From contig NKIW01000007.1 of NCBI GenBank assembly GCA_002256205.1, forward strand, positions 62,001 to 126,000: 64,000 nt of DNA, written 5' to 3'. The notes below the pieces were generated by a model. The model was not told the origin of the DNA. It did no database searches and was given only the letters and a program-made list of their open reading frames with translations. The first letter of the stretch is position 1; every line of letters starts with the position of its first letter. This DNA is from Rhizobiales bacterium PAR1 (lineage in GTDB: Bacteria > Pseudomonadota > Alphaproteobacteria > Rhizobiales > Beijerinckiaceae). The translations under genes and the position numbers were made by a program. This document shows positions 3,740 to 63,096 of the stretch, piece by piece.

Positions 3740-3751
3740 ACGTCAGAGCTT
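3731..3751. terminator. Perfect hairpin straddling two convergent stop codons
   Basis: AAGCTCTGA (3731-3739) is exactly complementary to TCAGAGCTT (3743-3751) with a three-base loop ACG. The stem contains the uxaC stop codon on one arm and the stop codon of the minus-strand flavoprotein on the other. It probably acts as a bidirectional terminator or mRNA 3' stabiliser, though no T-run follows on either strand. Confidence 0.5.
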
Positions 3752-5134: not shown

Positions 5135-5155
5135 AGGATGAACTCCGGAAAATGA

Positions 5156-5193
5156 AACAGTTTGCTGTATGGGGTTGACGACAGCAAACTGTT
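5156..5193. promoter_or_regulatory. Perfect 13-bp inverted repeat, probable operator in a divergent promoter
   Basis: AACAGTTTGCTGT (5156-5168) and ACAGCAAACTGTT (5181-5193) are exact reverse complements separated by 12 bases. Each arm is itself a dyad of the form ACAG-N4-CTGT, so the site looks like two regulator dimers with centres 24 bases apart. A -35-like TTGACG lies at 5175-5180 and a -10-like TACAAT at 5195-5200, but their 14-base spacing is short. It sits between the flavoprotein and the HutC-type regulator, the obvious candidate to bind it. Confidence 0.65.
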
Positions 5194-5267
5194 CTACAAT
5201 TAATACAAAATCAAGCCGGTCGCTGAGCATCAACGAGGATGCCAGCCCTGTTGGAGACAAAGAGCGC

Positions 5268-6089
5268 GTGGTTGCCATCGAGCCATCCAAAACGCAGAGG
5301 ATCTACCTTCTTCTCAAGGAGCAGATCCTGAAAGGCACGCTTCCGCCGGGGCATCGTTTGCCGAGCGAACCCCAGCTGGCGCTGGCGCATCGGCTCTCGC
5401 GCGTGACCATCCGCCGCGCTCTGGAGGGGCTAGAACGGGATGGATTGATCCGTCGTCAACCGGGCGCTGGAACCTTTGTTCTCGATAATTCCTCGCGAAA
5501 AGGCGTCGTGGGCGACCTTTCCAACATGTTGGCGCACCTCGTCGCCATGGGGCGCGCGACGCGGGCACACCTCCTGAGCTTCAGCTATATCGTCCCGCCT
5601 TCGCCTGTCTCGGAAGCGCTCAAGCTTGGTGAGGGCGAGCGTGTCCAGCATTCGGTGCGTGTGCGTCTGATTGACGATACGCCCTTCTCGCATCTGACGA
5701 CATTCGTGCCGGAACGGGTGGGCGTGACCTACAACGAAGCGGACCTTTCCTCGACCCCGCTGCTCTCGTTGCTCGAACGTTCGGGCGTTGTTGCGGACAA
5801 GGCCAACCAGACAATCTCGGCGACGCTTGCCGGGCCGGAAATCGCCGAAGTGTTAGGTGTGGAGGTCGGCTCGCCGCTGATTTCGATGACGCGCGTTGTG
5901 TTCGATGATCAGGGGCGCGGCGTGGAATATCTTCAGGCGCTCTACCGGCCCGATCTGCACACCTTCCAGATGGAAATGACGCGGACCGGCATCGGCGCGG
6001 ATCGCCGCTGGGCGCCTGTGGCCAGCGTGGGCCGCACACCGGAAAAGCCCGGCGGGTTGCGCCGGACCATCCGGAGACGGCAGGTATGA
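5268..6089 (+). CDS. GntR-family regulator, HutC/UTRA subfamily
   Basis: The GTG start at 5268 has GGAGA ten bases upstream and gives a 273-residue protein beginning VAIEPSKTQRIYLLLKEQI, as usual for HutC members. A longer frame from ATG 5169 would begin inside the operator and is less likely. The winged HTH covers about residues 10-75 (HRLPSEPQLA, SRVTIRRALEGLERDGLI, PGAGTFV) and a UTRA ligand-binding domain follows. Its 3' end overlaps the next gene by ATGA, so regulator and transport genes are translationally coupled. It probably represses the divergent flavoprotein and the 14-gene block, with a pathway metabolite as inducer (inference). Confidence 0.85.
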   Translation: MVAIEPSKTQRIYLLLKEQILKGTLPPGHRLPSEPQLALAHRLSRVTIRRALEGLERDGLIRRQPGAGTFVLDNSSRKGVVGDLSNMLAHLVAMGRATRAHLLSFSYIVPPSPVSEALKLGEGERVQHSVRVRLIDDTPFSHLTTFVPERVGVTYNEADLSSTPLLSLLERSGVVADKANQTISATLAGPEIAEVLGVEVGSPLISMTRVVFDDQGRGVEYLQALYRPDLHTFQMEMTRTGIGADRRWAPVASVGRTPEKPGGLRRTIRRRQV

Positions 6090-7075
6090 CGCCGAGGTTC
6101 GTAACACGGCGGGCGCTGCTCGCGTCGACCATGCTGGCGCTTGCGCCCAGCCTCCTGTCGAAGGCTGCGCATGCGCAAGGCGGCTGGCCGACGCGCGGCG
6201 GGCGGATCGTTGTTCCCTACCCCGCCGGCGGCGCGACCGATATCATGGGCCGCGTTGCCGCTGAAGCGCTGGCGCAGGGTACAGGCCATCGTTTCGTGGT
6301 CGAAAACAAGGGCGGCGCTTCGGGCGCGCTTGGCTCGGCTGAAGTCGAGCGTGCCGCGCCCGACGGCTATACGCTGCTCGTCGCGACGCCAGCGACGCAT
6401 GTGACGAACGCCTTCCTCAAGACCAAGCTGGCGTATGATCCGAACAATTTCGAGCCCGTGGTGCTGCTCTCGCGCAGCCCGCTGGTGCTGGTTGCCCATC
6501 CCTCGCTGCCGGCAAATTCGGTGGCGGAACTGGTGGCCCTCGCCAAGCGCGAAGCGGGCAAGCTGAATTACGCGAGTTCCGGCACCGGCGCGACGAGCCA
6601 TCTTGCGCCCGAGCTGTTCAAGAAGCTCGCGGAGGTTGATATCGCGCATATCCCGTATCGCGGTGCCGGGCCGGCCATGACGGACCTTGTGGGCGGCAAG
6701 GTCCAGATCATGTTCGACAATCTGCAATCGGCGTTGCCGCAGATCGAGGCCGGTACTGTCAAGGTGCTCGGCGTGACGAGTGCCGAACGGCTGGCGAGCC
6801 ATCCGAAAATCCCGACCATCGGCGAAACCGTGAAGGGCTATGAGGCGCTTAGCTTTCTTGCGCTTGTCGCGCCGAAGGGCACGCCGCGTCCGATCATCGA
6901 TACCATCAGCCGCCAGATCCAGACCCATCTCAAGGCCCCGGCCCTCGCCGCGACGCTCGCCGGGATCGGGGTCGAGCCTGTTGAAAGTACACCGGAATCC
7001 CTCGCGACCTTTCTTCTCGGTGAGCGCGCCAAGTGGGGGGCGCTGATCAAGGAGCGAGGTCTGACAGCGGAATAA
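6086..7075 (+). CDS. Bug/TctC-family tripartite tricarboxylate-type binding protein
   Basis: The 329-residue protein begins with a signal peptide carrying RR and ending AHAQ at about residue 31. The mature start WPTRGGRIVVPYPAGGATDIMGR is the hallmark of the Bug family, periplasmic receptors that bind carboxylates and amides such as citrate, aromatic acids, glutamate or nicotinate. YASSGTGATSHLAPELFK and IPYRGAGPAMTDL are further family motifs. No TctA/TctB membrane genes are present, so it may act as a sensor or cooperate with an importer elsewhere. It overlaps the regulator gene by four bases and precedes the Liv importer. Confidence 0.9.
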   Translation: MTPRFVTRRALLASTMLALAPSLLSKAAHAQGGWPTRGGRIVVPYPAGGATDIMGRVAAEALAQGTGHRFVVENKGGASGALGSAEVERAAPDGYTLLVATPATHVTNAFLKTKLAYDPNNFEPVVLLSRSPLVLVAHPSLPANSVAELVALAKREAGKLNYASSGTGATSHLAPELFKKLAEVDIAHIPYRGAGPAMTDLVGGKVQIMFDNLQSALPQIEAGTVKVLGVTSAERLASHPKIPTIGETVKGYEALSFLALVAPKGTPRPIIDTISRQIQTHLKAPALAATLAGIGVEPVESTPESLATFLLGERAKWGALIKERGLTAE

Positions 7076-7147
7076 GCGACTTCTCGAAAACGCCGTCAAG
7101 CGATGAACGCCTCGAACCAAAAACGCCTTGAACAAGGAGAACGTGCC

Positions 7148-8377
7148 ATGAAGAACCGGACCACGACGACGGGCGGTCTTGACCGCCGCACCCTGCTAAA
7201 AGCCGCTGCTGCTGGCTCGGTGGCTAGCCTCGCGATGCCCGGCATTCTCCGCGCGCAGGGCGCAGCGGTGAAGATTGGCGTTCTCCAGCCTGTGACCGGC
7301 GCGCTGGCGCAGGACGGCGAACATGGCCGCATCGGCGCCGAAATCGCCATCAACGAAATCAATAAGGCTGGCGGCATCAAGGCGCTCGGCGGCGCTAAGG
7401 TCGAGATGGTGTTCGGTGATGCGCGCTCGACGCCGGAAGGTGGCACGCAGGAAGTCGAGCGGATGCAGGCGGAGGGCGTCTGTGCCATCGTCGGCGGTTT
7501 TGCCTCACCGATCTGCCTTGCGGCGACGCAGGCGGCCTCGGCCTACAACATTCCGTTCATCGTCGACGTTGGCGTCTCGGATCAGATCGTCAAACGCGGG
7601 TTGAAGAACACGTTCCGCTTCGGCCCCGGCTTCGGCTCGGTGACCTCCGCCGCGCTCGATAACCTCGCCAAGCTCAACGAGGGCGCGGGCAAGCCGGCGA
7701 AGACCGTCGTGATCGTCCATGAAGACGGCCTTTTCGGCTCGGGCATGGCGAAGCTGCTTCAGGCCGAACTGCCCAAGCGCGGCTTCGAGGTTCTCGAAAC
7801 GGTTGCCCACCCGACGCCTTCGCGCGACATGGCGAACGTGGCGCTGCGCATCCGCGCACTCAACCCGGATCTCGTGATCCCCTCGAGCTATTATTCGGAA
7901 TTCGTGCTGCTGGCGCGCACCATGCAGCAGCAGAAGATCAAGCCGAAGGGCATCTACGCGGTGCTCAACGGCGCGGCCTCGAACTACCGCTTCGTCAAGG
8001 AATTCCCGGAGGCGGCCAACCTCGTGATGGATTGCAACCATTGGGCCGACTTCCGCAAGCCCAAGACCGCCGAAGTGCGGGCAGAAACCGAGCGGGCCGG
8101 CAAGTCCTGGCTCTACAACACCCCGCTCAACTACTCCTGCATGCGCCTTGTCGTGGATGCGATCGAGCGCGCCGGCTCGACGGATCGCCAGAAGATCATC
8201 GATGCGCTTAACGCCTCGACCTTCGCCGATCACATCATGCCCTATGGCGCAACGAAGTTCGTCGATGGCCAAAACATGGGTGCACAGGCAGTGAACACGC
8301 AGGTGCAGAACGGCGAGATCAAGATCATCTTCCCGTCGGAAGTGGCGAACGCCAAGCCGATCTTCCCGGTGATCTGA
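7148..8377 (+). CDS. LivK-type ABC substrate-binding protein (system 1)
   Basis: ATG 7148 has AAGGAG eight or so bases upstream and gives 409 residues; an upstream in-frame ATG at 7103 lacks a ribosome site. Residues 13-35 form a Tat-like signal (DRRTLLKAA ... GILRAQ). The mature protein starts VKIGVLQPVTGALAQDGEHGR, typical of the type 1 periplasmic fold (Peripla_BP_6) that binds branched-chain amino acids, amides, urea or aromatic acids. It heads a complete KHMGF transport set with gaps of 15 bases or less. The ligand is unknown; the neighbouring catabolic genes suggest a nitrogenous or carboxylic ring compound rather than leucine. Confidence 0.9.
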   Translation: MKNRTTTTGGLDRRTLLKAAAAGSVASLAMPGILRAQGAAVKIGVLQPVTGALAQDGEHGRIGAEIAINEINKAGGIKALGGAKVEMVFGDARSTPEGGTQEVERMQAEGVCAIVGGFASPICLAATQAASAYNIPFIVDVGVSDQIVKRGLKNTFRFGPGFGSVTSAALDNLAKLNEGAGKPAKTVVIVHEDGLFGSGMAKLLQAELPKRGFEVLETVAHPTPSRDMANVALRIRALNPDLVIPSSYYSEFVLLARTMQQQKIKPKGIYAVLNGAASNYRFVKEFPEAANLVMDCNHWADFRKPKTAEVRAETERAGKSWLYNTPLNYSCMRLVVDAIERAGSTDRQKIIDALNASTFADHIMPYGATKFVDGQNMGAQAVNTQVQNGEIKIIFPSEVANAKPIFPVI

Positions 8378-8392
8378 TCAAGGCTCAGCGTC

Positions 8393-9265
8393 ATGCTTAA
8401 GCTCGATATTTTCCTATCAGCGCTCGCGAACGGCCTCCTTACGGGAGCCGTTTACGCACTGATCGCGCTTGGGCTGACGCTGATCTACGGCGTGCTGCAC
8501 ATCATCAACTTCGCACATGGCGCGACGCTGACTCTCGCCATGTTTGCCGTGTTCGTGATGCACAGCGCCTTCAAGATCGACCCTTACATCGCGATTTTTA
8601 TGCTGACGCCGCTGTTTTTCGGCGTCGGCTATCTCTTGCAGCGGCTGGTGATCAATCCGGCGAGCCATGGCGATGACAGCAACATCCTGCTGGTCACGCT
8701 AGGCCTCTCGATCATCTTCGAGAACGGATTGCTGGCGATCTTCCGTTCGGATACCCGCTCAATTGACGTGCCCTACGGCTTCGATGTCATCGAGGTCGGC
8801 AACCTCTTTCTTTCGACACCGAAGGTGATCGCCTTTGTCGCGGCCTTTGCTGTGGCGGCCGCGCTCTGGCTGCTGCTTGCGCGAACCGATACCGGCAAGG
8901 CGATCCGCGCTGTCGCCAAGGAAAAGACCGGCGCGGCGCTCTGCGGCATGGATGTCGAGCACATTTACGCCGTCACCTTCGGGCTGGGCACAGCCTGCCT
9001 TGCGATTGCCGCCTGCCTGCTGATGCCAACGTTCCTCGTCAACCCGCGCATCGGCAATGCCTTTGTGCTGGTCGCCTTCACCATCGTTGTGCTCGGCGGC
9101 ATGGGCTCGATCGGCGGCGCGCTCGCGGGCGGGTTGATTATCGGCGTCGTCGAAAGCCTTTCCGGTCTCTATTTCGGCGAGAGCCTTGGTCAGATCGGTA
9201 TTTTCCTGATCTTTCTCATCGTGCTGCTGTTCCGTCCCACGGGCCTGTTCGGAGCCAAAGCATGA
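8393..9265 (+). CDS. LivH-type ABC permease (system 1)
   Basis: The 290-residue protein is an inner-membrane permease. The N-terminal GLLTGAVYALIALGLTLIYGVLHIINFAHGA segment, given here only in outline, is the first two membrane helices with the conserved NFAHG turn of LivH. GGMGSIGGALAGG near residue 240 is the conserved cytoplasmic coupling loop. It ends with LFRPTGLFGAKA, the family C-terminus, and overlaps livM by ATGA. It forms the membrane channel with LivM. Confidence 0.93.
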   Translation: MLKLDIFLSALANGLLTGAVYALIALGLTLIYGVLHIINFAHGATLTLAMFAVFVMHSAFKIDPYIAIFMLTPLFFGVGYLLQRLVINPASHGDDSNILLVTLGLSIIFENGLLAIFRSDTRSIDVPYGFDVIEVGNLFLSTPKVIAFVAAFAVAAALWLLLARTDTGKAIRAVAKEKTGAALCGMDVEHIYAVTFGLGTACLAIAACLLMPTFLVNPRIGNAFVLVAFTIVVLGGMGSIGGALAGGLIIGVVESLSGLYFGESLGQIGIFLIFLIVLLFRPTGLFGAKA

Positions 9266-10233
9266 GAACCGGCCTGCCCGTCTCGCTCGTTATTGTTGTG
9301 GCGCTGTTGGCGGCTTTGCCGCTGGCGTTTACCGCCAATACGATGCTGAATTTTCTCACTTTCGTGATGATCGTGACGCTTGCGGCACAAGGCTGGAACC
9401 TGCTCGCCGGGTTCGGTGGTCAGTTCTCCTTTGGCCATGCCGCGTTCTTTGGCATGGGTGCCTATGCCATGGCGATCCTCCAGGTACGCTATGGCATCAA
9501 TGCCTGGCTTGCGCTGCCGCTGGCGATGGCGCTCGGGGCTGTCGTGGGCTTTTTTCTAGGCTTCCTGAGCTTCCGGGCGCAACTCCGGGGTTCCTATTTC
9601 GCGCTGGTGACGCTGGCGTTTGCCGAGGTGTTCCGCATTCTCGCCAATGCCTCGAGCTTCACCAATGGCGCGGCGGGCATTCTGGTGCCGCTCAAGACAA
9701 GCGCGGCTGATTTCCAGTTCGCGGATCGGCGCTGGTTCTACTGGGTTGCGCTGGCTTTCGTCGCGCTGGTGTTGGCGCTGACGTATCACATCAGTCGGAC
9801 GCGCTTTGGCGCGCATCTCGTCGCGGTGCGCGAGAATGAGGAAGCGGCGCGCGCGCTCGGGGTCGATGCCTTCCGGACCAAGCTCAAGGCGATCACGCTT
9901 TCGGGTGCGATCACCGCGACGGCAGGCTGCCTCTACACGCAGAAATTCCTCTATATCGACGCCAATCTCGCCTTCGGTCCATGGATTTCAGTCGAGGCGT
10001 TGCTCGCCCCGATCATCGGCGGCATGGGTACGGTGCTCGGCCCGCTCGCGGGCGCGATGATGCTGCTGGGCCTTGGGGAAGTGACGAAATCTCTCTTCGC
10101 GATGTTGCTCGGCGGCTCGATTCCCGGCGTCGATCTCGTGGTCTTCGGTGTGTTGCTGATCCTCTGCGTCGCCTTTGCGCCGCAAGGCGTGATGGGCGCG
10201 ATCAAGCGGTTTTCATCGCGAGGTGCTCCATGA
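9262..10233 (+). CDS. LivM-type ABC permease (system 1)
   Basis: This 323-residue permease has about eight to ten hydrophobic segments. The motifs GQFSFGHAAFFGMGAY (residues about 53-68), LRGSYFALVTLAFAEV and RENEEAARALGVD are typical of LivM. PIIGGMGTVLGPLAGA is the coupling loop that contacts the ATPases. It overlaps both neighbours by ATGA, which implies tight translational coupling and co-assembly with LivH. Confidence 0.93.
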   Translation: MRTGLPVSLVIVVALLAALPLAFTANTMLNFLTFVMIVTLAAQGWNLLAGFGGQFSFGHAAFFGMGAYAMAILQVRYGINAWLALPLAMALGAVVGFFLGFLSFRAQLRGSYFALVTLAFAEVFRILANASSFTNGAAGILVPLKTSAADFQFADRRWFYWVALAFVALVLALTYHISRTRFGAHLVAVRENEEAARALGVDAFRTKLKAITLSGAITATAGCLYTQKFLYIDANLAFGPWISVEALLAPIIGGMGTVLGPLAGAMMLLGLGEVTKSLFAMLLGGSIPGVDLVVFGVLLILCVAFAPQGVMGAIKRFSSRGAP

Positions 10234-10985
10234 GTACGCTTCTCACCTGCGAAAATGTCACCAAGCGTTTCGGTGGCTTGCTGGCGGTGGATAATGCCTC
10301 GCTGACCGTCGAGGCAGGTTCGATCACCGGGCTGATCGGTCCGAATGGTGCGGGGAAAACCACGCTTTTCACGATGATCTCGGGCTTTGCCGAACCGACC
10401 TCCGGCCGTGTGATGTTCGAGGGGCGCGATATCACCGCCCTTCCCGCACATATCCGCGCCGCGCAGGGCATCGCCCGCACTTTCCAGATCGTGCAGCCCT
10501 TCGCCGGACTCTCTGTGCATGAGAATATCGCGGTTGGGGCCTATCTGCGCCATGCCGGGCGTACGGAGGCCATGGATAAAGCGGAAGCCGTCGCGCGCGA
10601 AGTCGGGCTTGATGCGATGCTTGCCCAACCCGCCGGAGCGCTGACCGTTGCCGGACGCAAGCGGCTCGAACTTGCCCGGGCGCTGGCTACCGAACCGCGC
10701 TTGCTCCTCCTTGATGAGGTGCTCGCGGGGCTGAACCCGTCGGAAATCCGCGACATGATCCCTGTCTTACAGGCAATCCGCTCGCGCGGCGTGACGATCC
10801 TCATCGTCGAACACGTGATGCAGGCGGTGATGCAGCTTTGCGATACCGTTTATGTGCTGGCGCAGGGACGGATGATCGCGAGCGGCGCGCCGGGCGAAGT
10901 CGCGCACGACCAGGGCGTTGTCGAGGCCTATCTCGGCCATGGTGCGGCGCGGAAGATGCAAGCCCATCACGAGGCAAAGTCATGA
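10230..10985 (+). CDS. LivG-type ABC transporter ATPase (system 1)
   Basis: The start at 10230 overlaps the livM stop as ATGA and gives 251 residues. Walker A is GPNGAGKT, the Q-loop region reads ARTFQIVQPF, and Walker B is LLLLDEVLAGLNP, where the more usual DEPAAGL is replaced by DEVLAGL, a frequent variant. The C-terminal VVEAYLGHGA is the LivG ending. It pairs with LivF to power uptake. Confidence 0.93.
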   Translation: MSTLLTCENVTKRFGGLLAVDNASLTVEAGSITGLIGPNGAGKTTLFTMISGFAEPTSGRVMFEGRDITALPAHIRAAQGIARTFQIVQPFAGLSVHENIAVGAYLRHAGRTEAMDKAEAVAREVGLDAMLAQPAGALTVAGRKRLELARALATEPRLLLLDEVLAGLNPSEIRDMIPVLQAIRSRGVTILIVEHVMQAVMQLCDTVYVLAQGRMIASGAPGEVAHDQGVVEAYLGHGAARKMQAHHEAKS

Positions 10986-11000
10986 TTGGGATCAAAGATC

Positions 11001-11702
11001 ATGCTTGAGGTTCGGGGGCTTGTTGCGGGGTATGGCGGCGTGCCGATTCTGCGCGGTGTATCGCTCGATGTCGCGCCAGGAGCGGTCTACGCTGTGCTCG
11101 GCGCGAATGGCGTCGGCAAGACGACGCTCAACCGCGCGATTTCCGGGTTGATCCCGGTTTCCGGCGGCACAATTACCTTCGAAGGCGAGCGGATCGATGG
11201 GCTGAAGCCGCCTGCGATTGTCGAGCGCGGCCTCATTCATGTGCCGGAGGGGCGCAAGATTTTCCCGAACATGAGCGTGCGGGAAAACCTCGAACTCGGT
11301 TCGTATCGCCGCGCGAAACCGCGCCGGAGCGCCAATCTGGAGAAGGTCTTCGCGACGTTCCCGCGCCTTAGGGAGCGCGAAATGCAGTTCGCTGGTACGC
11401 GCTCCGGCGGCGAGCAGCAGATGCTCGCGATCGGGCGCGGGCTGATGGCCGAGCCGAAGCTCCTCATTCTCGACGAGCCTTCGCTGGGCCTCTCGCCACT
11501 GCTGGTCGAAGAGCTTTTCGTGCTGATCGCGCGGATCGCGGCAGAAGGGCTCGCCGTAATGCTGGTCGAGCAGAATGTCGTGCAGTCGCTGGAGCTGGCG
11601 GCAGAGGCTTCCGTGCTGGCGAACGGTACAGTCGTGTTGTCCGGTCCTGCGGCGGAGCTTTCGCGCGATCCGGATCTTGAAAAAACCTATCTCGGGATGT
11701 GA
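11001..11702 (+). CDS. LivF-type ABC transporter ATPase (system 1)
   Basis: The ATG at 11001 gives 233 residues, the usual LivF size; a TTG at 10986 would add five residues. Motifs are Walker A GANGVGKTT, VPEGRKIFPNMSVRENL (LivF-specific), the signature SGGEQQMLAIGR and Walker B LLILDEPSLGLSP. The C-terminus KTYLGM is typical. It completes the importer and lies six bases before the MmgE/PrpD gene, which ties transport to catabolism. Confidence 0.93.
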   Translation: MLEVRGLVAGYGGVPILRGVSLDVAPGAVYAVLGANGVGKTTLNRAISGLIPVSGGTITFEGERIDGLKPPAIVERGLIHVPEGRKIFPNMSVRENLELGSYRRAKPRRSANLEKVFATFPRLREREMQFAGTRSGGEQQMLAIGRGLMAEPKLLILDEPSLGLSPLLVEELFVLIARIAAEGLAVMLVEQNVVQSLELAAEASVLANGTVVLSGPAAELSRDPDLEKTYLGM

Positions 11703-11708
11703 GGCACT

Positions 11709-13091: not shown

Positions 13092-13981
13092 TGTCCCCCG
13101 CCTCCTCCCTTCCCGGCTCGTTCAAGGCGCGGATCGGCCAAAGGCCTATCGTGCTGGCACCGGGCATCTATGATGCGCTGACCGCCTCACTTGCCACTGA
13201 TGCCGGGGCCGAAGCGCTTTATCTTTCGGGCGCGGCGGTGGCGTATACCCGCCTTGGGCGTCCCGATATCGGCCTCACCTCGATGACGGAAATGGCCGAG
13301 ACCATAGCACTGATCCGCGACCGGGTCGCCACCCCGTTGATCGTCGATGCTGATAACGGCCATGGCAATGCGCTCAACATGCAGCGCACGATGCGGATTT
13401 TCGAGCGTGCCGGCGCCAATGCCTTGCAGATCGAGGATCAATCCTACCCCAAGCGCTGCGGGCATCTGGCCGAAAAGCGTCTGATTTCCGCGACCGAGAT
13501 GGCTGGCAAGATCAAGGCCGCTGCGGATGCGCGCGCCAGTGACGATACGGTCATCATCGCGCGGACGGATGCGATTGCGGTCGAGGGCTTCAATGCTGCG
13601 ATCGATCGCGCCTGCCTCTATGCGCAATCCGGCGCGGATATGCTGTTCGTGGAAGCGCCCGGCAGTCAGGATGAACTGGGTGCCATCGTCAAGGCGCTCG
13701 CGGGGACCGGCCTGCCGCTGATGGCCAATATGGTCGAGGGCGGGCGCACACCCATCAAGGCCGCCGCCGAGCTTGAAGCCCAAGGGTTCAGACTTGTGAT
13801 CTTCCCCGGCGGCATTGTTCGCGCCATCGCCCATGCGGCGCAGGCGTTCTACGCAACGCTTCTGCGTGACGGCACGACGGACGCCTTCCGCAACGCGATG
13901 TTCGATTTCGATGAACTCAACGAGGTCATCGGCACGCCGGAAATGCTGGCGCTCGGCAAGCGCTACGAGGACAACGCCTGA
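13091..13981 (+). CDS. Isocitrate lyase/PEP mutase-family carboxylate lyase (PrpB-like)
   Basis: ATG 13091 overlaps the preceding stop (TGATG) and gives 296 residues; a GTG three bases earlier is possible. The TIM-barrel motifs are APGIYDALTASLA, the metal-binding DADNGHGNALN, and the gating-loop motif EDQSYPKRCGHLAEK, which retains the catalytic Cys of the lyases (methylisocitrate lyase, 2,3-dimethylmalate lyase, oxaloacetate decarboxylase family). ARTDAIAVEGF is also typical. The neighbours suggest cleavage of a hydroxylated branched diacid to pyruvate or glyoxylate plus a short acid. It overlaps the HyuB gene by one base. Confidence 0.87.
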   Translation: MSPASSLPGSFKARIGQRPIVLAPGIYDALTASLATDAGAEALYLSGAAVAYTRLGRPDIGLTSMTEMAETIALIRDRVATPLIVDADNGHGNALNMQRTMRIFERAGANALQIEDQSYPKRCGHLAEKRLISATEMAGKIKAAADARASDDTVIIARTDAIAVEGFNAAIDRACLYAQSGADMLFVEAPGSQDELGAIVKALAGTGLPLMANMVEGGRTPIKAAAELEAQGFRLVIFPGGIVRAIAHAAQAFYATLLRDGTTDAFRNAMFDFDELNEVIGTPEMLALGKRYEDNA

Positions 13982-15723
13982 TGACCACCCCGACTCTCGA
14001 CCCCGTCACCTTCGCCATTCTCACCGGGCGGCTCGAACAGATCGCCGACGAGATGGACGCGACGCTTTATCGCTCCGCATTCAACCCGATCATCGCGGAA
14101 GCGCGTGACGCTTGCCACGGTCTCTATCATGCCACGACCGGCGCAACGCTGGTGCAGGGCCAGCGCGGTTTGCCAATTTTCGTCGGTGCGATGGCATTCG
14201 CGGTCAAATCCGTGATCGACAAGGTCGGGCCTGACGGGGCCGAGGACGGCGATACCTTCATCTTCAACGACCCCTACGCGGGCGGAACGCATCTCAACGA
14301 TTTCCGTCTCGTGCGGCCGTTGATGCGGGGCGGGAAGCTCTTCGCCTGGCTCGCCTCGGTTGGCCATTGGCTCGATATCGGCGGCAATGTGCCGGGTGGT
14401 TACAATCCGCAGGCGGTCGAGAGCTTTCAGGAAGGTGTGCTGATCCCGCCGGTGAAGCTCTTCAGGAAGGGCGTGATCCAGCAGGACATCGTCGATATCC
14501 TGCAAGCGAATACCCGTGTTCCGCGCTCGAACTGGGGTGATCTCAACGGCCAGCTCAACGCGCTCGATCTCGGCGAAAAGCGCTTCCACGCGCTGATCGA
14601 TGAATACGGCGATGGCGTTGTCGAAGCGGCGCTCGAAGCCGCCTCCGCCCGCGCTGAAGCCTTGATGCGGGCCAATATCGCCGCCCTGCCCGATGGGGTC
14701 TATTCGTTTGAGGATTACCTCGATAACGACGGCATCGTCGATGAAAAGCTGACCATCGCGCTCGATCTCACCATTGCGGGCGAGACCATGGTGCTCGATT
14801 TCTCGCGCTCCTCGCCCGCCTGCAAGGGGCCGGTGAATATTGCGAAATCGACCGCCGTTGCGGCCTGCTATGTCGCGCTGAAACATGTGTTCACCGAAGT
14901 TCCGGCCAATGCTGGCTGCCTTCGACCGATCACCTTCGAGATCTCCGAGACGAGCTTTCTCGGCGTCTCCGCGCCGCGCCCTGTGGCCGGATATACCGAG
15001 ACCATTTTGCGGATGATCGGCGTGGTGTTCGGCGCGCTGGCGAAGGCCGATCCCTCGCGTGCCACGGCGGCCCCCTTCGGTACCATCAACGCGCTCTCGG
15101 TTGCCGGGCATCGCTCGAATGGCGAGCGCTGGGTGCTGTTCTCGTTCTTCGGCGGCGGTCTGGGCGGCAATCCGGCGTCCGATGGCCTCAACCACGCGAA
15201 TAACCCGATTTCCACGGCGACCATGCCGCCGGCGGAAATTCTGGAAGCCTCTTATCCCGTTATGTTCACCGAATGGGGCCTACGGCCGGAAAGCGCAGGT
15301 GCGGGTGCGCATCGGGGCGGCTTTGGCGCAGTTTATGCGCTCGAAGTGCTCTCAGAAGGCGGGGCGGATGTCTCACTTCTGGGTGAGCGCGGGCGTTACG
15401 CGCCGTTCGGTGTTGCGGGCGGCGCGCCCGGTGCGCTCAACCTGTTCCATTGGGAAACGGATGACGGACTGAAATCACCCGCCATGGCCTCGAAGGTCAC
15501 GGGCGTGAAGTTAACGCAGGGGCAGGAAATCCGTCTGCAATCGCCCGGCGGTGGTGGCTGGGGCGATGCCCGGACCCGCGCGCCAGAAGCCGTCGCGCGA
15601 GATGTCGTACGCGGGCTCCTTTCGCCCGAAACTGCCAGACAGGATTATGCCGTGATTGTCGATGCCTCAGGTCTCGTGGATACCAAGGCGACTGCCGCCC
15701 TCCGAGCGGGAGAAGCGGCATGA
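13981..15723 (+). CDS. hyuB: Hydantoinase B/oxoprolinase-family subunit (pair 1)
   Basis: The 580-residue protein belongs to the HyuB family (also N-methylhydantoinase beta, 5-oxoprolinase C-terminal half, acetone carboxylase alpha subunit). Typical stretches are DPVTFAILTGRLEQIADEM, NDPYAGGTHLNDFRLV, VGHWLDIGGNVPGGYN and, near the C-terminus, SPGGGGWGDA. With HyuA it would carry out ATP-dependent opening of a cyclic amide or carboxylation of a small ketone. The order hyuB-hyuA with ATGA coupling supports one heteromeric enzyme. The substrate is not visible from sequence. Confidence 0.9.
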   Translation: MTTPTLDPVTFAILTGRLEQIADEMDATLYRSAFNPIIAEARDACHGLYHATTGATLVQGQRGLPIFVGAMAFAVKSVIDKVGPDGAEDGDTFIFNDPYAGGTHLNDFRLVRPLMRGGKLFAWLASVGHWLDIGGNVPGGYNPQAVESFQEGVLIPPVKLFRKGVIQQDIVDILQANTRVPRSNWGDLNGQLNALDLGEKRFHALIDEYGDGVVEAALEAASARAEALMRANIAALPDGVYSFEDYLDNDGIVDEKLTIALDLTIAGETMVLDFSRSSPACKGPVNIAKSTAVAACYVALKHVFTEVPANAGCLRPITFEISETSFLGVSAPRPVAGYTETILRMIGVVFGALAKADPSRATAAPFGTINALSVAGHRSNGERWVLFSFFGGGLGGNPASDGLNHANNPISTATMPPAEILEASYPVMFTEWGLRPESAGAGAHRGGFGAVYALEVLSEGGADVSLLGERGRYAPFGVAGGAPGALNLFHWETDDGLKSPAMASKVTGVKLTQGQEIRLQSPGGGGWGDARTRAPEAVARDVVRGLLSPETARQDYAVIVDASGLVDTKATAALRAGEAA

Positions 15724-17777
15724 CCAAGCTTTCCACGCTCGTTGGCGTCGATGTCGGCGGCACGTTCACTGATCTCGCGTTCTTTGATGAGAAGACGCGC
15801 GCCTTCCGCACCGCCAAGGTGCCCTCGAACCGCGGCGACGAAGCTGTCGGCTTCATTGAGGGGCTTAAGCGGCTCGATGCTATCGCCAATCTCGGCGCGA
15901 TTGTTCATGGCACGACCGTGGGCACCAATGCGCTGCTGGAGCGCAAGGGTGCGAAAATCGGCATCATCACGACGCCGGGCTTCCGCGATACGCTGGAAAT
16001 GCGACGCCGCGACCGGCCCAATACCTGGGGGCTCTGGGGCGATTTCGAACCCATCGCCTCCCGTGAATTCCGCCTTGAAGTGCCTGAAAGAACGCTGGCG
16101 GATGGCACTATCCGCGTCGCGGTTCAGAAGGCTGATATCGAAGCGGCCTGCGCCAAGCTGATCGCCATGGGGGCTGAAGCGCTCGCTATCGGCTTCATCA
16201 ATGCCTATGCTAACCCGGCGAATGAGCGCGCGGCGCTCGAAGCCGCGCGGGCGGTGTGGCCGAACGCGCATGTCTCGGCCTCGCATGAATTGCTGCCGGA
16301 AATCCGCGAGTTTGAACGCACCTCGACCATCGCCCTCAACGCCTATCTCCAACCTGTCGTGGCGAGTTATCTCGGCAAGCTTGAGGATGCACTCGCGGGC
16401 GATGGCTTTGCCGGCTCGTTCCATATCGTGCAATCCAACGGTGGCGTGATGTCGACCGCGAATGCGCGGAAATTCCCGGTCCGTACCGCGCTATCCGGTC
16501 CGGCGGCGGGCGTGATCGCGGCAGCGGCCATCGGGCGCGCGGCGGGTTATGAGGATATCGTCACCGCCGATCTTGGCGGTACTTCCTTCGATGTCAGCCT
16601 CGTGGCAGGCGGCGAAGCGGCGCTCGCAGCACAGACCACCATCGACTTCGGCATGGTCGTCCGCACGCCGATGATCGAGATCACCACCATCGGCGCCGGC
16701 GGCGGGTCCATCGCCCATGTCGACAAGGGCGGGTTGCTGGCTGTTGGGCCGGAAAGCGCTGGTTCGCGCCCCGGTCCGGTCGCCTATGCGCAGGGCAACA
16801 CCCGCCCGACCCTCACGGACGCGAATATCGTACTCGGGCGGATCAACGCCGAAAAGCCGATCGGCGGCAAGCTCGCACGGCTCGATGTCGAAGCCGCGCG
16901 TGCGGCGATCGACGCGCATATCGGTGAGCCGCTCGGCCTTTCGCCGGAAGCGGCGGCGGAGGCGATCATCCGCGTCGCCAATGCGAAGATGGCCGGCGCT
17001 ATCCGGCTGGTGTCCATCGAGCGCGGGCATGATCCGACGAAATTTACCGCTGTGCCCTTCGGTGGTGGCGGTGCGCTGCATGTTGGCGCGCTGATCAAGG
17101 ATGTCGGCCTCAAATCCGCACTGGTGCCGCGCTATCCCGGCATCACCTCGGCGCTTGGCTGCATCATCGCCGATATCCGGCATGATGAGGTCGCGACCGT
17201 CAATCTGATGCTCGACGGGCTCGATGCCGCTTCGCTCGCGGCACGCATGGCGGAGACGGGCGAGAAGGCGCGTGCGATTGTCGCCGCTGCCTCGCTTCAG
17301 GTCGAGCGGATCGATGTCGTCTTCGAACTCGACATGCATTATCAGGGTCAGACGCATACGGTCGGCGTGCCGCTGCCGGTGACGCTGGAGGCCGGCAAGG
17401 TTTCGCTGAGCGAGGCTGTGGTTCGCGCGGCGTTCGAAACCGCCTACGCCAAGGCGTTTTCGCGCCTCCTGCCCGGCATTCCGGTGAAAATAGTGAACCT
17501 CCGGACGGCTGCCATCGGCCGCCGCCCGGCATTCGATTTGGCTGCGCTTGCCCCTGCGGCGGATGCCAGCATCGAGACGGCGGCGCGTGGCTATCGCAAG
17601 GTGTGGTTTGACGGCGGCTGGCACGAGGCGGCGATTTATGATCGCCTCGCGCTACCGATTGACGCGAAAATCACCGGCCCCGCCATTCTCGAACAGGCGG
17701 ATGCGACCATTGTTCTCGATCCCGGCCTTGGCGCACGGGTCGACCGCTTCGGCAACCTCATTGTGGAGCGCCTGTGA
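15720..17777 (+). CDS. hyuA: Hydantoinase A/oxoprolinase-family ATPase subunit (pair 1)
   Basis: The 685-residue subunit has the ASKHA ATPase fold: phosphate-1 motif VDVGGTFTDLAFFD at residues about 9-22, HGTTVGTNALLERKG at about 62, and phosphate-2 motif TADLGGTSFDVSLV. GAGGGSIAHVD and SRPGPVAY are conserved in HyuA. The C-terminal domain contains the DMHYQGQTH segment. It phosphorylates the amide or keto intermediate while HyuB completes the reaction, by analogy with N-methylhydantoinase and acetone carboxylase. It overlaps hyuB by four bases and the next gene by one base. Confidence 0.92.
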   Translation: MTKLSTLVGVDVGGTFTDLAFFDEKTRAFRTAKVPSNRGDEAVGFIEGLKRLDAIANLGAIVHGTTVGTNALLERKGAKIGIITTPGFRDTLEMRRRDRPNTWGLWGDFEPIASREFRLEVPERTLADGTIRVAVQKADIEAACAKLIAMGAEALAIGFINAYANPANERAALEAARAVWPNAHVSASHELLPEIREFERTSTIALNAYLQPVVASYLGKLEDALAGDGFAGSFHIVQSNGGVMSTANARKFPVRTALSGPAAGVIAAAAIGRAAGYEDIVTADLGGTSFDVSLVAGGEAALAAQTTIDFGMVVRTPMIEITTIGAGGGSIAHVDKGGLLAVGPESAGSRPGPVAYAQGNTRPTLTDANIVLGRINAEKPIGGKLARLDVEAARAAIDAHIGEPLGLSPEAAAEAIIRVANAKMAGAIRLVSIERGHDPTKFTAVPFGGGGALHVGALIKDVGLKSALVPRYPGITSALGCIIADIRHDEVATVNLMLDGLDAASLAARMAETGEKARAIVAAASLQVERIDVVFELDMHYQGQTHTVGVPLPVTLEAGKVSLSEAVVRAAFETAYAKAFSRLLPGIPVKIVNLRTAAIGRRPAFDLAALAPAADASIETAARGYRKVWFDGGWHEAAIYDRLALPIDAKITGPAILEQADATIVLDPGLGARVDRFGNLIVERL

Positions 17778-18379
17778 TGAGCGACTGGACCTCGACCGCC
17801 CTGCTGCTGTGCGATTTGCAGAACGATTTCATCCATCCCGATGGCGCGTATGCACGTGGCGGACAAGGCAATGCCGAGATCGCTGCCCTGCCCGCGCGGA
17901 TCAAACCGCTGGCGGATACGATGCGGAAGGCGGGCGGCCTCGTGATCTCGACGCATTTCACGCTGGTGCCAGGGCGCGGCGGCGAACCGATGATCTCGCC
18001 GCACCTCAAGAAGATTCGCCCCTTTCTGCGCAAGGGTGATTTCGCGCCGGGCGGCTGGGGTCAGGCGACGGTCGATGCGCTGCAACCTGTTGATGTAGCG
18101 GTCGAAAAGGTCGCCTACTCAGCCTTTTATATGAGCCGACTTGAATGGGTGATCCGCAAGCTCGGCGTCACGCGGCTGCTCGTTTGCGGCATTGTCACCA
18201 ACGGTGGCGTGGCCTCGACCTTCCGCGACGCGCATGTCCGCGACCTCGAGGCCATTCTACTGGAAGATGGCTGCGCCGCCTTCTCGCCGGAGGTGCATAA
18301 GACGGCCGTGGACGCGCTGCGCCCGGTGGGCCGCGTGGCCTCCATCGCCGAGATGATCGCGGAGATCGAAGCGGCATGA
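17777..18379 (+). CDS. Isochorismatase-fold hydrolase with Gly at the catalytic Cys position
   Basis: ATG 17777 (overlapping the HyuA stop) gives 200 residues of the isochorismatase-like superfamily, which contains N-carbamoylsarcosine amidase, nicotinamidase and maleamate amidase. The catalytic Asp is at 13 (LCDLQNDF) and Lys at 111 (VEKVAYSAF). In the third motif, GIVTNGGVASTFRDAH, the residue where amidases carry the nucleophilic Cys is Gly144. Isochorismatases such as EntB and PhzD also lack this Cys, so a vinyl-ether or other non-covalent hydrolysis, or a lost amidase activity, must be considered. Its tight coupling to HyuA and LeuC places it in the same pathway. Confidence 0.85.
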   Translation: MSDWTSTALLLCDLQNDFIHPDGAYARGGQGNAEIAALPARIKPLADTMRKAGGLVISTHFTLVPGRGGEPMISPHLKKIRPFLRKGDFAPGGWGQATVDALQPVDVAVEKVAYSAFYMSRLEWVIRKLGVTRLLVCGIVTNGGVASTFRDAHVRDLEAILLEDGCAAFSPEVHKTAVDALRPVGRVASIAEMIAEIEAA

Positions 18380-19770
18380 GCGCGCCGCGCACGCTGTTCG
18401 ACAAACTTTGGGATAGCCATGTCATCACGACGCGTGAGGATGGCGAATCCCTGCTCTGGGTTGACCGGCATTTCGTGCATGAAGGCTCGCACCATGCCTT
18501 CCGCAATCTCGATGCGCGCGGCGAAAAGCTCGCGGAGCCGGGACTGACTTTCGGCGTCGCGGATCATTACGTCCCCACGCGCGGGCGCCCGGCGATCCCG
18601 GATGACGAGATCGCGGGGATGGTGGATCGGCTTTCAGCCAATGCAGGGAAGCACGGCTTTCGCCTTTTTGACATCGCGGACCCGGCGCAGGGTATTGTCC
18701 ATGTTGTCGGGCCGGAACAGGGGCTGACGCTGCCGGGGCTGCTCATCGTCTGTGGGGATAGCCACACCTCCACGCATGGCGCTTTCGGGGCCTATGCCTT
18801 CGGGATCGGCGCTTCCGAAGTCGCCCATGTGCTGATGACGCAGACCCTCTGGCAGAAAAAGCCGAAGCGGATGCGGATCACGGTTGCGGGCCGCCTCGGG
18901 CCGCATATCTCAGCGAAGGACCTCGCGCTCCACGTGATTCGCACCATCGGGGCGGACGGCGCGCGCGGTGCTGCGGTGGAATACGCTGGCGAGGCTATTT
19001 CTGCGCTTTCAATGGAAGGGCGGCTGACGCTCTGCAACATGTCGATTGAGGGCGGCGCGCGTTGCGCGATGGTTGCGCCAGATGAGGTCACCTTCGCGTG
19101 GGTTCGGGGACGCCCTTACGCACCGAAGGGCGCGGCACTGGATTTTGCGATTGCGGCGTGGCGCGAGCTTACGACAGACCCCGGCGCGACCTTCGACCGC
19201 GAAGTCGCGCTCAATGCCGCAGACATCGCGCCGCTCGTTACCTGGGGCGTGAGCCCGGAGGATGCGCTGGCAATTACGGCGCAAGCGCCTGATCCGGCTG
19301 CTGAGGTTGACCCCGCGCGCGCGAAATATCTTGCCGAAGCGCTGAATTATATGGGGCTTTCTCCCGGCCAGAATCTCGAAACAGTTGTTGTAGACCGCGT
19401 TTTCATCGGCTCCTGCACCAATGCTCGGATCGAGGATCTGCGCGCGGCGGCGGGCGTGCTCAAGGGCCGCAAGGCGAAGGTGCCTGGGCTTGTTTCTCCC
19501 GGCTCGACGCTGGTGAAGAAGCAGGCCGAGGTCGAAGGACTCGACCGGATTTTCATTGAGGCCGGTCTGATCTGGGCTGATTCTGGCTGCTCCATGTGTG
19601 TCGGGATGAACGGCGATCTTGTGAGCGCCGGAGAGCGCTGCGCTTCCACCACCAACCGCAATTTTCGTGGACGGCAGGGCAAGGATGCGCGCACGCATCT
19701 GATGTCGCCCGCGATGGTCGCTGCAGCGGCGGTCACGGGGCGGCTCACGGATGTGCGGAAGCTGGGGTGA
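18376..19770 (+). CDS. Aconitase-family hydratase, large subunit (LeuC-like)
   Basis: The 464-residue protein has the LeuC layout: RTLFDKLWDSHV, VDRHFVHEG, CGDSHTSTHGAFGAYAFGIG, then the iron-sulfur cluster cysteines in IGSCTNARIEDLRAAA and SGCSMCVGMN. These three Cys positions bind a [4Fe-4S] cluster for (de)hydration of malate-type acids. Family members include isopropylmalate isomerase, citraconase, dimethylmaleate hydratase and maleate hydratase. No leuA or leuB is nearby, and the gene is embedded in a catabolic block, so a role in diacid degradation is more likely than leucine synthesis. Confidence 0.88.
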   Translation: MSAPRTLFDKLWDSHVITTREDGESLLWVDRHFVHEGSHHAFRNLDARGEKLAEPGLTFGVADHYVPTRGRPAIPDDEIAGMVDRLSANAGKHGFRLFDIADPAQGIVHVVGPEQGLTLPGLLIVCGDSHTSTHGAFGAYAFGIGASEVAHVLMTQTLWQKKPKRMRITVAGRLGPHISAKDLALHVIRTIGADGARGAAVEYAGEAISALSMEGRLTLCNMSIEGGARCAMVAPDEVTFAWVRGRPYAPKGAALDFAIAAWRELTTDPGATFDREVALNAADIAPLVTWGVSPEDALAITAQAPDPAAEVDPARAKYLAEALNYMGLSPGQNLETVVVDRVFIGSCTNARIEDLRAAAGVLKGRKAKVPGLVSPGSTLVKKQAEVEGLDRIFIEAGLIWADSGCSMCVGMNGDLVSAGERCASTTNRNFRGRQGKDARTHLMSPAMVAAAAVTGRLTDVRKLG

Positions 19771-19773
19771 TTC

Positions 19774-20382
19774 ATGGATAAGTTCACGACCCTTTCCGCG
19801 CCTGCCTGCCCGCTCGGGCTCGAAAACGTCGATACAGACCAGTTGATCCCTGCGCGCTTCATGAGCCGCCCCCGCTCGGCAGGCTATGGTCGATTTCTGC
19901 TGCACGACCTCCGGTTCGACGAGGCTGGAACCTCGAAGGGGTTCGTGCTCGATACGCGCTATTCGACTGCGAAAATCATGGTCGCGCGGCGTAATTTCGG
20001 CACCGGCTCCTCGCGCGAAGCGGCGGTTTATGCCCTCTGGGATTTCGGTATTCGCTGCGTGATCGCGCCGTCTTTCGGGGATATTTTCGCGTCGAACGCG
20101 GTCAAGAACGGACTGCTGCCTGCCACCGTGACGCCGGAGGATGCGGAAGCCTTGCTCCAGAGGCTCGGCGAGGTGGATCAGCCGATCACCGTTGATCTTG
20201 AGGCGCAGACCATCACCTCCGGCAATTTCCAGTGTGGATTTGTGATCGATCCGGTGCGGCGGCTACAGCTTCTGAACGGCTGGGATGACCTCGATCTGAC
20301 GCGCCGTCACACGGATGAAATCGCGACGTTCCGGGCGGCGCGGCTCGGTGCCGAGCCTTGGGTGATGCCCGTTACGGAATGA
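19774..20382 (+). CDS. Aconitase-family hydratase, small subunit (LeuD-like)
   Basis: The 202-residue partner of the upstream LeuC-like subunit forms the swivelling domain. Motifs are VDTDQLIPARFM, the substrate-recognition NFGTGSSREAAVYALWDFG and APSFGDIFASNAVKNGLLP. It starts three bases after the LeuC stop. It is the last gene of the block, and its 3' end overlaps the convergent IlvD/EDD gene by 11 bases, so no separate terminator fits between them. Confidence 0.9.
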   Translation: MDKFTTLSAPACPLGLENVDTDQLIPARFMSRPRSAGYGRFLLHDLRFDEAGTSKGFVLDTRYSTAKIMVARRNFGTGSSREAAVYALWDFGIRCVIAPSFGDIFASNAVKNGLLPATVTPEDAEALLQRLGEVDQPITVDLEAQTITSGNFQCGFVIDPVRRLQLLNGWDDLDLTRRHTDEIATFRAARLGAEPWVMPVTE

Positions 20383-41397: not shown

Positions 41398-41590
41398 GCT
41401 TTCGGTGCCTCTCGCAGGAGAGGTGAAACGGGAATGTGGTGCGAACCGAAGGGTTCTATTCCACGGCTGCCCCCGCAACTGTAAGCGGCGAGTGCTTCTC
41501 GCACAAACCACTGATCCCGTTGGGATTGGGAAGGACGAGAAGCGCATTGACCCGCGAGCCAGGAGACCGGCCGAGAGCATGTGCAACCCC
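41398..41590 (+). promoter_or_regulatory. Cobalamin (B12) riboswitch upstream of btuB
   Basis: The conserved aptamer elements appear in order: CGGTGCC at about 41403, GAAACGGGAA at 41425-41434, CCCCGCAACTGTAAGCGG at 41470-41487 and the B12 box GAGCCAGGAGACCGGCC at 41556-41572. The btuB ribosome site GGGAGGA follows at 41612, so adenosylcobalamin binding probably sequesters it or terminates transcription. The boundaries are approximate. The preceding part of this 360-base gap (41262-41397) shows no gene and no convincing promoter. Confidence 0.93.
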
Positions 41591-41621
41591 AGACTTCGGC
41601 GGTGGGCCGAAGGGAGGAACC

Positions 41622-54495: not shown

Positions 54496-54499
54496 GGCC

Positions 54500-57240: not shown

Positions 57241-57271
57241 AAGGGCGGCTCGCCACGCGCGAGCCGCTTCT
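57241..57271. terminator. Bidirectional terminator hairpin between livF and hyuB
   Basis: GCGGCTCGC (57245-57253) and GCGAGCCGC (57259-57267) form a perfect 9-bp stem with a 5-base loop, extended by two G-U pairs. It lies between the two convergent stop codons and ends at the hyuB stop. There is no long T-run. Confidence 0.6.
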
Positions 57272-63095: not shown

Positions 63096-63096
63096 C

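Follow-up and report, generated by a model that had tools for sequence, protein, structure and literature searches.

In the lower half of the 2-methylcitrate cycle, PrpD or the AcnD/PrpF pair acts before the lyase PrpB. The nicotinate fermentation of Eubacterium barkeri ends with dimethylmaleate hydratase DmdAB and dimethylmalate lyase, and cyclic imides are metabolized in Blastobacter by an imidase and a half-amidase. The gene block analyzed in this study occupies positions 5169/5268-20382 of a 64,000-nucleotide stretch of Rhizobiales bacterium PAR1, hereafter the window, which is part of contig 1 of a 4.2-Mb genome in 25 contigs. The block encodes an importer, the HyuAB pair, an isochorismatase-fold protein, a LeuCD-type aconitase-family pair, and a PrpB-like lyase. 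Together with a divergently transcribed FAD gene it rather probably forms, as judged from comparative sequence analysis, a unit for the breakdown of a substituted five-membered cyclic imide of the maleimide or succinimide type.

As in the 2-methylcitrate cycle, a substituted cis-aconitate-like acid would be hydrated and then cleaved by a PrpB-type enzyme, and relatives of both MmgE/PrpD and PrpB are present; unlike in that cycle, no citrate-synthase-type gene is found among the 15 genes, the lyase falls below the prpB cut-off, ring opening would come first, and the hydratase is of the LeuCD/hacAB kind. With the E. barkeri pathway the block shares an aconitase-family pair and a PEP-mutase-family lyase for a substituted maleate, but the diacid would arise here from an imide via HyuAB and not via a B12 mutase route. 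The succession of imide, half-amide, and diacid is that of Blastobacter and, according to an excerpt of PMC9304392, of the fungal HxnM/HxnN enzymes, except that HyuAB would replace the PuuE-like or metal imidase, the isochorismatase-fold protein lacks its cysteine, and the diacid would be further hydrated and split. The HyuA-HyuB architecture and sequence family are those of N-methylhydantoinase and CapAB, whereas the scores are far under the CapAB cut-offs and the partner genes are different. Finally, as in glutarate degradation (SUGCT, GcdH), a GcdH orthologue and a SUGCT-like transferase stand inside the operon in some lineages, but both are absent from the block of the window. The claim of the original prediction that no characterized operon has this set agrees with our searches of the open-license PMC literature (partly untargeted, with subscription journals outside their scope), in which no description of either the gene set or bacterial hematinic acid catabolism was found among the papers listed. 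Thus, single reactions have precedents, while the assembled route, the amide step without a cysteine, and the catabolic reuse of "leucine" enzymes appear to be undescribed.

Gene content and conservation of the block

The features of the block and of its upstream region are as follows.

3743..5134, minus strand: FAD_binding_2 protein, predicted C-C dehydrogenase, divergent from the block (Pfam, NCBIfam, nearest structures)
5135..5267, no strand: shared spacer holding two ACAGNNNNCTGT palindromes, a candidate GntR operator for either direction of transcription (motif search)
5268..6089, plus strand: GntR/UTRA (HutC-type) regulator, start uncertain (ATG 5169 or GTG 5268)
6086..7075, plus strand: TctC-type solute-binding protein (Pfam)
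7103..8377, plus strand: LivK-type solute-binding protein (Pfam/family match)
8393..9265, plus strand: LivH-type permease (Pfam/family match)
9262..10233, plus strand: LivM-type permease (Pfam/family match)
10230..10985, plus strand: LivG-type ATPase; the match begins at residue 85 of the open reading frame 9981-10985, and the start given is a chosen one
10986..11702, plus strand: LivF-type ATPase (family match)
11709..13091, plus strand: MmgE/PrpD family protein, optional member, predicted epimerase/isomerase or dehydratase (Pfam)
13088..13981, plus strand: PEP-mutase/isocitrate-lyase superfamily C-C lyase, PrpB-like (profile matches, aligned motifs)
13981..15723, plus strand: HyuB, hydantoinase B/oxoprolinase family (Pfam)
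15720..17777, plus strand: HyuA, hydantoinase A/oxoprolinase family, presumed ATP-dependent ring opener (Pfam, nearest structure)
17774..18379, plus strand: isochorismatase-fold hydrolase without the catalytic cysteine, candidate half-amidase (Pfam, alignment to solved relatives)
18376..19770, plus strand: LeuC-type aconitase-family large subunit, predicted catabolic hydratase (profile match), replaced by a hacA-type protein in relatives
19774..20382, plus strand: LeuD-type aconitase-family small subunit (profile match)

All 14 plus-strand genes were found in the families originally named for them. Their close coupling was confirmed as well, and it is tighter than had been stated: with the starts chosen here the intergenic gaps range from -4 to 27 bases, and the largest is not 72. 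The single operator proposed for them corresponds to the ACAGNNNNCTGT palindrome, which occurs twice (at 5157 and at 5181) and nowhere else as an exact copy in the window; its operator role is that of a candidate, the motif being close to GntR in 4 of 61 GntR genes of relatives. The FAD_binding_2 gene (463 residues, running from 5134 down to 3743), which had been overlooked, is separated from the regulator gene by 133 bases if the latter starts at 5268.

In what follows, CysH denotes the isochorismatase-fold gene, PEPM the gene of the PrpB-like PEP-mutase-family lyase, and hacAB the homoaconitase/DmdB-type pair; L numbers denote compared loci. For the neighborhood comparison the best 80 of 305 HyuA relatives were kept and supplemented with same-genus genomes and annotated plasmids. 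A set of 128 loci, in which HyuA is more than 90% covered and more than 50% identical, excludes L030-L034 as repeats and still holds a few doubled places such as L036/L088, L046/L135, L047/L129, and L134/L157. The counts for this set are lower bounds, since many stretches end at contig ends or at set length limits. CysH is present in 126 of the 128 loci, PEPM in 89, the FAD gene (within the operon or divergent) in 84, LivK in 84, LeuC in 56, a hacA-type gene in 20, PrpD in 36, glutaryl-CoA dehydrogenase (GCDH) in 4, and SUGCT in 4.

A second sample was drawn evenly: of 385 genomes of the class, 26 (the genome of the window and 25 others) contain a HyuA orthologue with E 1e-210 or better, and 8 matches at E 1e-190 or better among 398 genomes of the phylum added 5 new places, to give 30 loci. 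HyuB occurs in all 30, CysH in 28, PEPM in 23, an aconitase pair in 21, the FAD gene in 17, and PrpD in 4; HyuAB, CysH, PEPM, and an aconitase pair are found together in 18, several of the stretches being incomplete. The genome of the window has three further HyuA loci, two of which (L057 and L058) served as a control; they have HyuB and no match to CysH, PEPM, the FAD gene, or LeuC. The co-occurrence of the gene set exceeds chance, since it recurs across the evenly drawn sample of 30 genomes while these two loci are without the partners. The gene-neighborhood comparison, proposed in the original prediction, therefore finds the set conserved across the class and the phylum, and the key link of the scheme suggested there, a hydratase and a lyase together with HyuAB, is well supported.

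Gene order is exemplified by Azospirillum oryzae (GntR-LivKHMGF-PEPM-HyuB-HyuA-CysH-FAD-LeuC-LeuD) and, outside the class, by Paraburkholderia largidicola (GntR-LivKHMGF-hacA-hacB-HyuB-HyuA-CysH-PEPM), a minimal betaproteobacterial unit with no FAD or PrpD match in the stretch. Variovorax has a unit of the Paraburkholderia type plus TctC and FAD genes. In Rhabdaerophilum calidifontis (L088), the stretch compared contains the HyuAB, lyase, and FAD genes and lacks LeuCD. The comparison thus establishes which genes make up the set, how they are conserved, that unrelated enzymes replace one another in this setting, and the residue patterns described below. The transport system varies among relatives (Liv, TRAP, or TctC, the latter also being found within the operon at L160, L186, and L214), and so does an isomerase-like extra (PrpD, a tautomerase, or Asp/Glu racemases). 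The MmgE/PrpD protein of the block has both the N and C domains, and its nearest solved structures are B. subtilis IRG1 and IDS-epimerase. These lineage-specific extras are probably epimerases or isomerases, and MmgE/PrpD, given as a pathway step in the original prediction, is an optional one, as its locus count above indicates. Several of the cluster-bearing genomes come from ponds and lakes and some from soil.

Predicted reactions and the enzymes behind them

We infer every reaction and the order of the steps as follows. LivKHMGF, with TctC, would import the ring compound. HyuAB would use ATP to open the imide to a maleamate-type half-amide, from which the isochorismatase-fold protein would free the amide as ammonia, the neighboring carboxylate of the substrate probably replacing the missing cysteine. 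The FAD enzyme would introduce a C=C bond when the compound enters saturated. LeuCD would hydrate the substituted maleate to a substituted malate, and the PrpB-like lyase would cleave the latter, the products being pyruvate or glyoxylate as the 2-oxoacid and a second acid that is probably glutarate in at least some lineages. Import, opening by HyuAB, an unsaturated diacid, hydration, and a lyase had all been proposed earlier, and the comparative evidence favors this scheme; the FAD step is our addition.

LeuC and LeuD of the block, which are of the PRK12466 type, both score above the NCBIfam leuC and leuD cut-offs (637.1 against 560.25 bits and 165.1 against 116.25 bits, respectively). These scores speak for a chance assortment of leucine-type LeuCD and unrelated genes, which is nevertheless hardly credible: the set is conserved over the class and the phylum with unrelated enzymes exchanged, and the genome holds two further LeuC genes (55% and 50%), so that the copy in the block is neither the sole one nor in a leucine context. 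Leucine synthesis was rejected as the function of the pair for the same reasons, the conserved catabolic context being one in which hacAB can take its place. Among the 21 evenly drawn loci with an aconitase pair, 6 have LeuCD and 15 hacAB, L167 having the small subunit alone at a contig end. The hacA and LeuD/DmdB-type pair of these relatives, from the homoaconitate hydratase subfamily, is about 31-41% identical to LeuCD and stands at the same position; the switch between the two takes 2 steps on the HyuA tree (77 labelled rows, with the 52 rows having no pair in the stretch excluded). This exchange at one place in few steps argues that the pair has been kept as a hydratase, and the aconitase-family pair is the predicted catabolic hydratase in this operon setting. 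In the loop of the small subunit that we take to be the HACN-type specificity motif, 20 of 25 hacB rows carry Lys, whereas LeuD varies (Ser, Lys, or other residues); this pattern does not decide the substrate.

The HyuAB proteins contain the Pfam domains Hydantoinase_A, Hydant_A_N, Hydant_A_C, and Hydantoinase_B. Caprolactamase (CapAB) function was rejected, as the scores of 507.1 and 308.9 bits are below the equivalog cut-offs of 1000 bits, and so was acetophenone carboxylase function, whose cut-offs are not reached either. The nearest solved structure of HyuA, N-methylhydantoinase, raises the alternative that HyuAB and the isochorismatase-fold protein degrade a hydantoin, in a creatinine-like manner, while LeuCD and the lyase handle a separate acid in the same operon. 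Asp/Glu/hydantoin racemase genes in some relatives and an Acetobacteraceae variant having HyuAB without the lyase and the hydratase point the same way. We regard this as distinctly unlikely, because LeuCD or hacAB and the lyase accompany HyuAB in 18 of the 30 evenly drawn loci and also occur with PuuE-type hydrolases, the cysteine of carbamoylsarcosine-type amidases is absent from the isochorismatase-fold protein, and the FAD enzyme groups by type with fumarate reductase and not with amino-acid oxidases. The missing cysteine was also the reason to set aside a creatinine-type route.

In two genomes (L049 and L050), hacAB and the lyase stand beside two PuuE/CE4-type hydrolases, with a Cys-bearing isochorismatase encoded on the opposite strand or at a distance of a few kb; in L050 the genes of the hydratase, the lyase, and the two PuuE-type proteins form an overlapping series on a single strand. 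No HyuA orthologue was found in the L049 genome (the best match is at 44%), and an 84-residue HyuB fragment (76%; 9653-9904, minus strand) adjoins the lyase there, alongside the PuuE-type genes, as if HyuAB had been lost. A GCDH-like frame by hacA in L050 runs for about 100 residues to a stop near the contig end and was not counted. According to an excerpt of PMC9304392, HxnM, which hydrolyzes cyclic imides, has relatives in an imidase of Pseudomonas putida and, via a deacetylase-like protein, in PuuE allantoinase. Since genes of this PuuE/imidase type stand by the same hydratase and lyase, an imide is preferred among the ring compounds originally considered, and a lactam or hydantoin is less favored.

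The lyase scores 276.4 bits with the prpB profile, below the equivalog cut-off of 354.4, and 57 bits with isocit_lyase. It retains PKRCGH; the catalytic KRCGH aligns with solved lyases and is at least 95% conserved in 69 rows. At the segment that we take to be the substrate segment of PrpB (NxTEFG), it has NMVEGGRTP instead of NMTEFGKTP; the corresponding residues are NMTEFG in methylisocitrate lyases and NMIEGG in petal death protein. Dimethylmalate lyase is a further relative, and both it and petal death protein split alkylmalates. The 2-oxoacid released by PrpB-type lyases is pyruvate, and the PrpB-like rather than isocitrate-lyase-like character of the enzyme (276 vs 57 bits) thus favors pyruvate as a product. 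Of 16 genomes searched, 14 have no lyase in the stretch around HyuA; an orthologue-level copy (57-68%) is located elsewhere in 5 of them, in one case 81 bases from a LeuC at 70%, and in the remaining 9, of which 7 are Roseomonas-type, the best relative is at 38-45%.

The isochorismatase-fold protein, annotated as "cysteine hydrolase" in public records, has Gly145 at the position of the nucleophile in 68 of 68 aligned rows, while Asp14 and Lys112 of the Asp-Lys-Cys triad, known from cysteine hydrolases of this fold such as RutB, BiuH, and N-carbamoylsarcosine amidase, are kept. In a wider scan the Gly motif was seen in 132 of 148 matches, the pattern being unmatched in the other 16, and isochorismatase paralogues of PuuE-type and PrpD-type clusters have Cys at this position. 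Dialkylmaleamic acids shed their amide fast via attack by the neighboring carboxylate, so an enzyme for such substrates might need only an acid, and the fold without a cysteine would fit a 2,3-disubstituted maleamate.

The FAD enzyme belongs to the superfamily of fumarate reductase, tricarballylate dehydrogenase, and 3-ketosteroid dehydrogenase, and is a predicted member of the catabolic set; its gene is divergent in the nearest relatives, like here. Compared with fumarate reductase, His255 and His398 are kept, and Tyr292 and Tyr440, each at least 95% conserved in 51 rows, align with two arginines, presumably the substrate-binding residues of fumarate reductase. Tyr292 also aligns with the KstD-like proteins L150 and L151 of the same genus (GxRFxNExxxYxxF), whose own scores do not reach the cut-off of the KstD model used; the second Tyr is off by three columns. 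From this pattern we read the enzyme as one that may dehydrogenate next to a carbonyl, such as that of an imide. It is a distant relative of TcuA, and molybdenum hydroxylases, typical for N-heteroaromatic breakdown, occur near the cluster in some relatives, both of which are compatible with a pyridine-derived six-membered imide of the citrazinate type, degraded through aconitate and isocitrate to glyoxylate and succinate. Such a route is very unlikely, since a housekeeping aconitase would be enough for it, the score with the TcuA model is 151.8 bits, under the cut-off of 369, both fumarate-reductase-type arginines are replaced by Tyr, and the glutarate enzymes described below would be left unexplained. 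The model cut-off and the arginines were also the grounds on which the tricarballylate/citrazinate route was set aside.

Glutarate genes and a candidate substrate

GCDH and/or a glutarate-type CoA-transferase are encoded within the operon in six loci (L039, L163, L165, L166, L176, and L212); in L118 they follow it. The loci L163, L166, and L176, from one genus (annotated as Tistrella mobilis), have the order CysH, acyl-CoA dehydrogenase, CoA-transferase, LeuC, LeuD; the acyl-CoA dehydrogenase matches human-type glutaryl-CoA dehydrogenase 1sir with 622 bits, and the CoA-transferase reaches 537 bits against the 750 set for the succinate--glutarate family, its solved relatives including SUGCT. 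In L165 the CoA-transferase gene is flanked by CysH and LeuC, the dehydrogenase gene of L039 overlaps the end of the FAD gene by 8 bases, and in L118 a set of LysR, GCDH, transferase, and 3-hydroxyacyl-CoA dehydrogenase genes follows the operon. The genome of the window has a GCDH orthologue (70%) elsewhere, outside the block. These genes suggest that glutarate is likely the acid released, at least in some lineages, which narrows the short acid of the original prediction; of the two 2-oxoacids named there, pyruvate is favored by the PrpB-like lyase.

If glutarate is a product of the lyase, the acid cleaved would be HOOC-CH2CH2-CH(COOH)-C(OH)(R)-COOH. With R = CH3 the other product would be pyruvate, and the acid would match opened and hydrated hematinic acid; with R = H it would be homoisocitrate, yielding glyoxylate. 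The latter case corresponds to a mono-substituted imide of the 3-(2-carboxyethyl)maleimide type, degraded by a homoaconitase and a homoisocitrate lyase to glyoxylate and glutarate. The commoner hydratase pair does belong to the homoaconitate hydratase subfamily, and the glutarate enzymes fit, but the lyase is nearest to the PrpB type and not to isocitrate lyase, and we know of no abundant natural imide of this shape; we consider this substrate unlikely.

The other case would be a dedicated route to pyruvate and glutarate from hematinic acid, which is 3-methyl-4-(2-carboxyethyl)maleimide, and from the dihydro form of this acid, a possibility that we put forward tentatively from the gene content. 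Both are pyrrole-derived imides that remain after the oxidation of chlorophyll and heme. HyuAB would open the imide, the protein without a cysteine would free ammonia from the dialkylmaleamate in a substrate-assisted manner, LeuCD or hacAB would hydrate 2-methyl-homoaconitate, and the lyase would yield pyruvate and glutarate. Hematinic acid had been named as a candidate before the glutarate genes turned up; no expectation of glutarate itself had been put on record at that point. According to passages of PMC7318184, hematinic acid is among the chlorophyll a degradation products and is present in leaves, where other maleimides were undetected; earlier finds of hematinic acid and maleimides from lake sediments and senescent leaves are cited there, and the yearly turnover of chlorophyll (synthesis and degradation) is put on the scale of ~10^12 kg. 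Maleimides are tetrapyrrole degradation products, as stated in a passage of PMC8669743.

Several observations weigh against the unit being a single imide route with this end. GCDH or the CoA-transferase is near in just 5 of the 128 loci, with 3 changes on the HyuA tree, and in L163, L166, and L176 the lyase is outside the unit, elsewhere in the genome (66-68%). The NMVEGGRTP segment, being closer to that of petal death protein than to that of methylisocitrate lyase, is hard to square with a tricarboxylic substrate, and the uniform absence of the cysteine makes the amidase role lean on a putative substrate-assisted mechanism. The PuuE-type unit of L050 is a sister unit and not a replacement of HyuAB, because the same genome also carries a complete HyuAB cluster (L035, 80% HyuA). 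The chief result of this kind comes from Acetobacteraceae: in 25 of the 80 loci retained as the best of 305 (Roseomonas-type and kin), a molybdenum-dehydrogenase large subunit (at least 70%) follows CysH or the FAD gene, and neither the lyase nor an aconitase pair is found in the stretch in any of the 25. Whole-genome searches of seven genomes of this or a related kind gave no lyase orthologue, the best matches being at 38-45%. Hence HyuAB may serve another route, and this variant probably uses another continuation.

Such a subunit after CysH or the FAD gene is carried by 6 of the 7 Roseomonas-type lyase-less genomes, L097 being without it. Examples of the molybdenum variant are L078, L081, L100, L101, L105, and L110; an RraA-like aldolase was found in a cluster of 8 loci (one member tested). 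The molybdenum hydroxylase of L043 was rejected as a part of this variant, as CoxG and an AAA ATPase are encoded nearby and the gene resembles that of CO dehydrogenase. A malate synthase G protein cluster near the operon (11 loci of one lineage; tested member) would speak for the homoisocitrate alternative with glyoxylate as product, but it was not used, those loci being without the lyase.

Neighboring genes, related clusters, and significance

The end of LeuD is overlapped by 11 bases by the end of an IlvD/EDD-family dihydroxy-acid/sugar-acid dehydratase gene (20372-22084, minus strand). Next to it, a PuuE/polysaccharide-deacetylase-like protein (22112-22999, minus strand) is encoded beside dipeptide-type transporter genes and could be a second cyclic-amide hydrolase near the block. 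The third other HyuA locus of the genome is also in the window: a HyuB-HyuA pair (57271-61271, minus strand; HyuA at 59241-61271, 37% to HyuA of the block) adjoins an oligopeptide-type double ABC ATPase (61302-63134). The window further contains a TonB-dependent receptor gene (41436-43649, plus strand) and, at 54482-56503, two long frames (672 and 667 amino acids) on opposite strands with almost complete overlap, the minus frame having no Pfam match.

On contig 16 of the same genome, L054 (26700-46600) encodes a lyase (42%), a Cys-bearing isochorismatase, a Liv transporter, an FAD enzyme that shares the Tyr pair, and two PrpD proteins, with no HyuAB or LeuCD match; this paralogous cluster is probably a sister pathway. 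In L040, a single 602-residue frame (11126-12934, minus strand) combines the GntR-UTRA regulator with a TctC domain, either as a fusion or as a sequence artefact. On a plasmid of Sulfitobacter sp. S190 (L217), bchM, bchL, bchB, bchF, and ppsR lie roughly 17-28 kb from the core, a single case.

For Alpha- and Betaproteobacteria, the proposed imide pathway would call for a corrected annotation of genes filed as LeuCD, PrpB-like, or "cysteine hydrolase". If hematinic acid is indeed the substrate, the pathway would explain the fate of a stable end product of chlorophyll and would constitute a bacterial route returning tetrapyrrole carbon and nitrogen to central metabolism.

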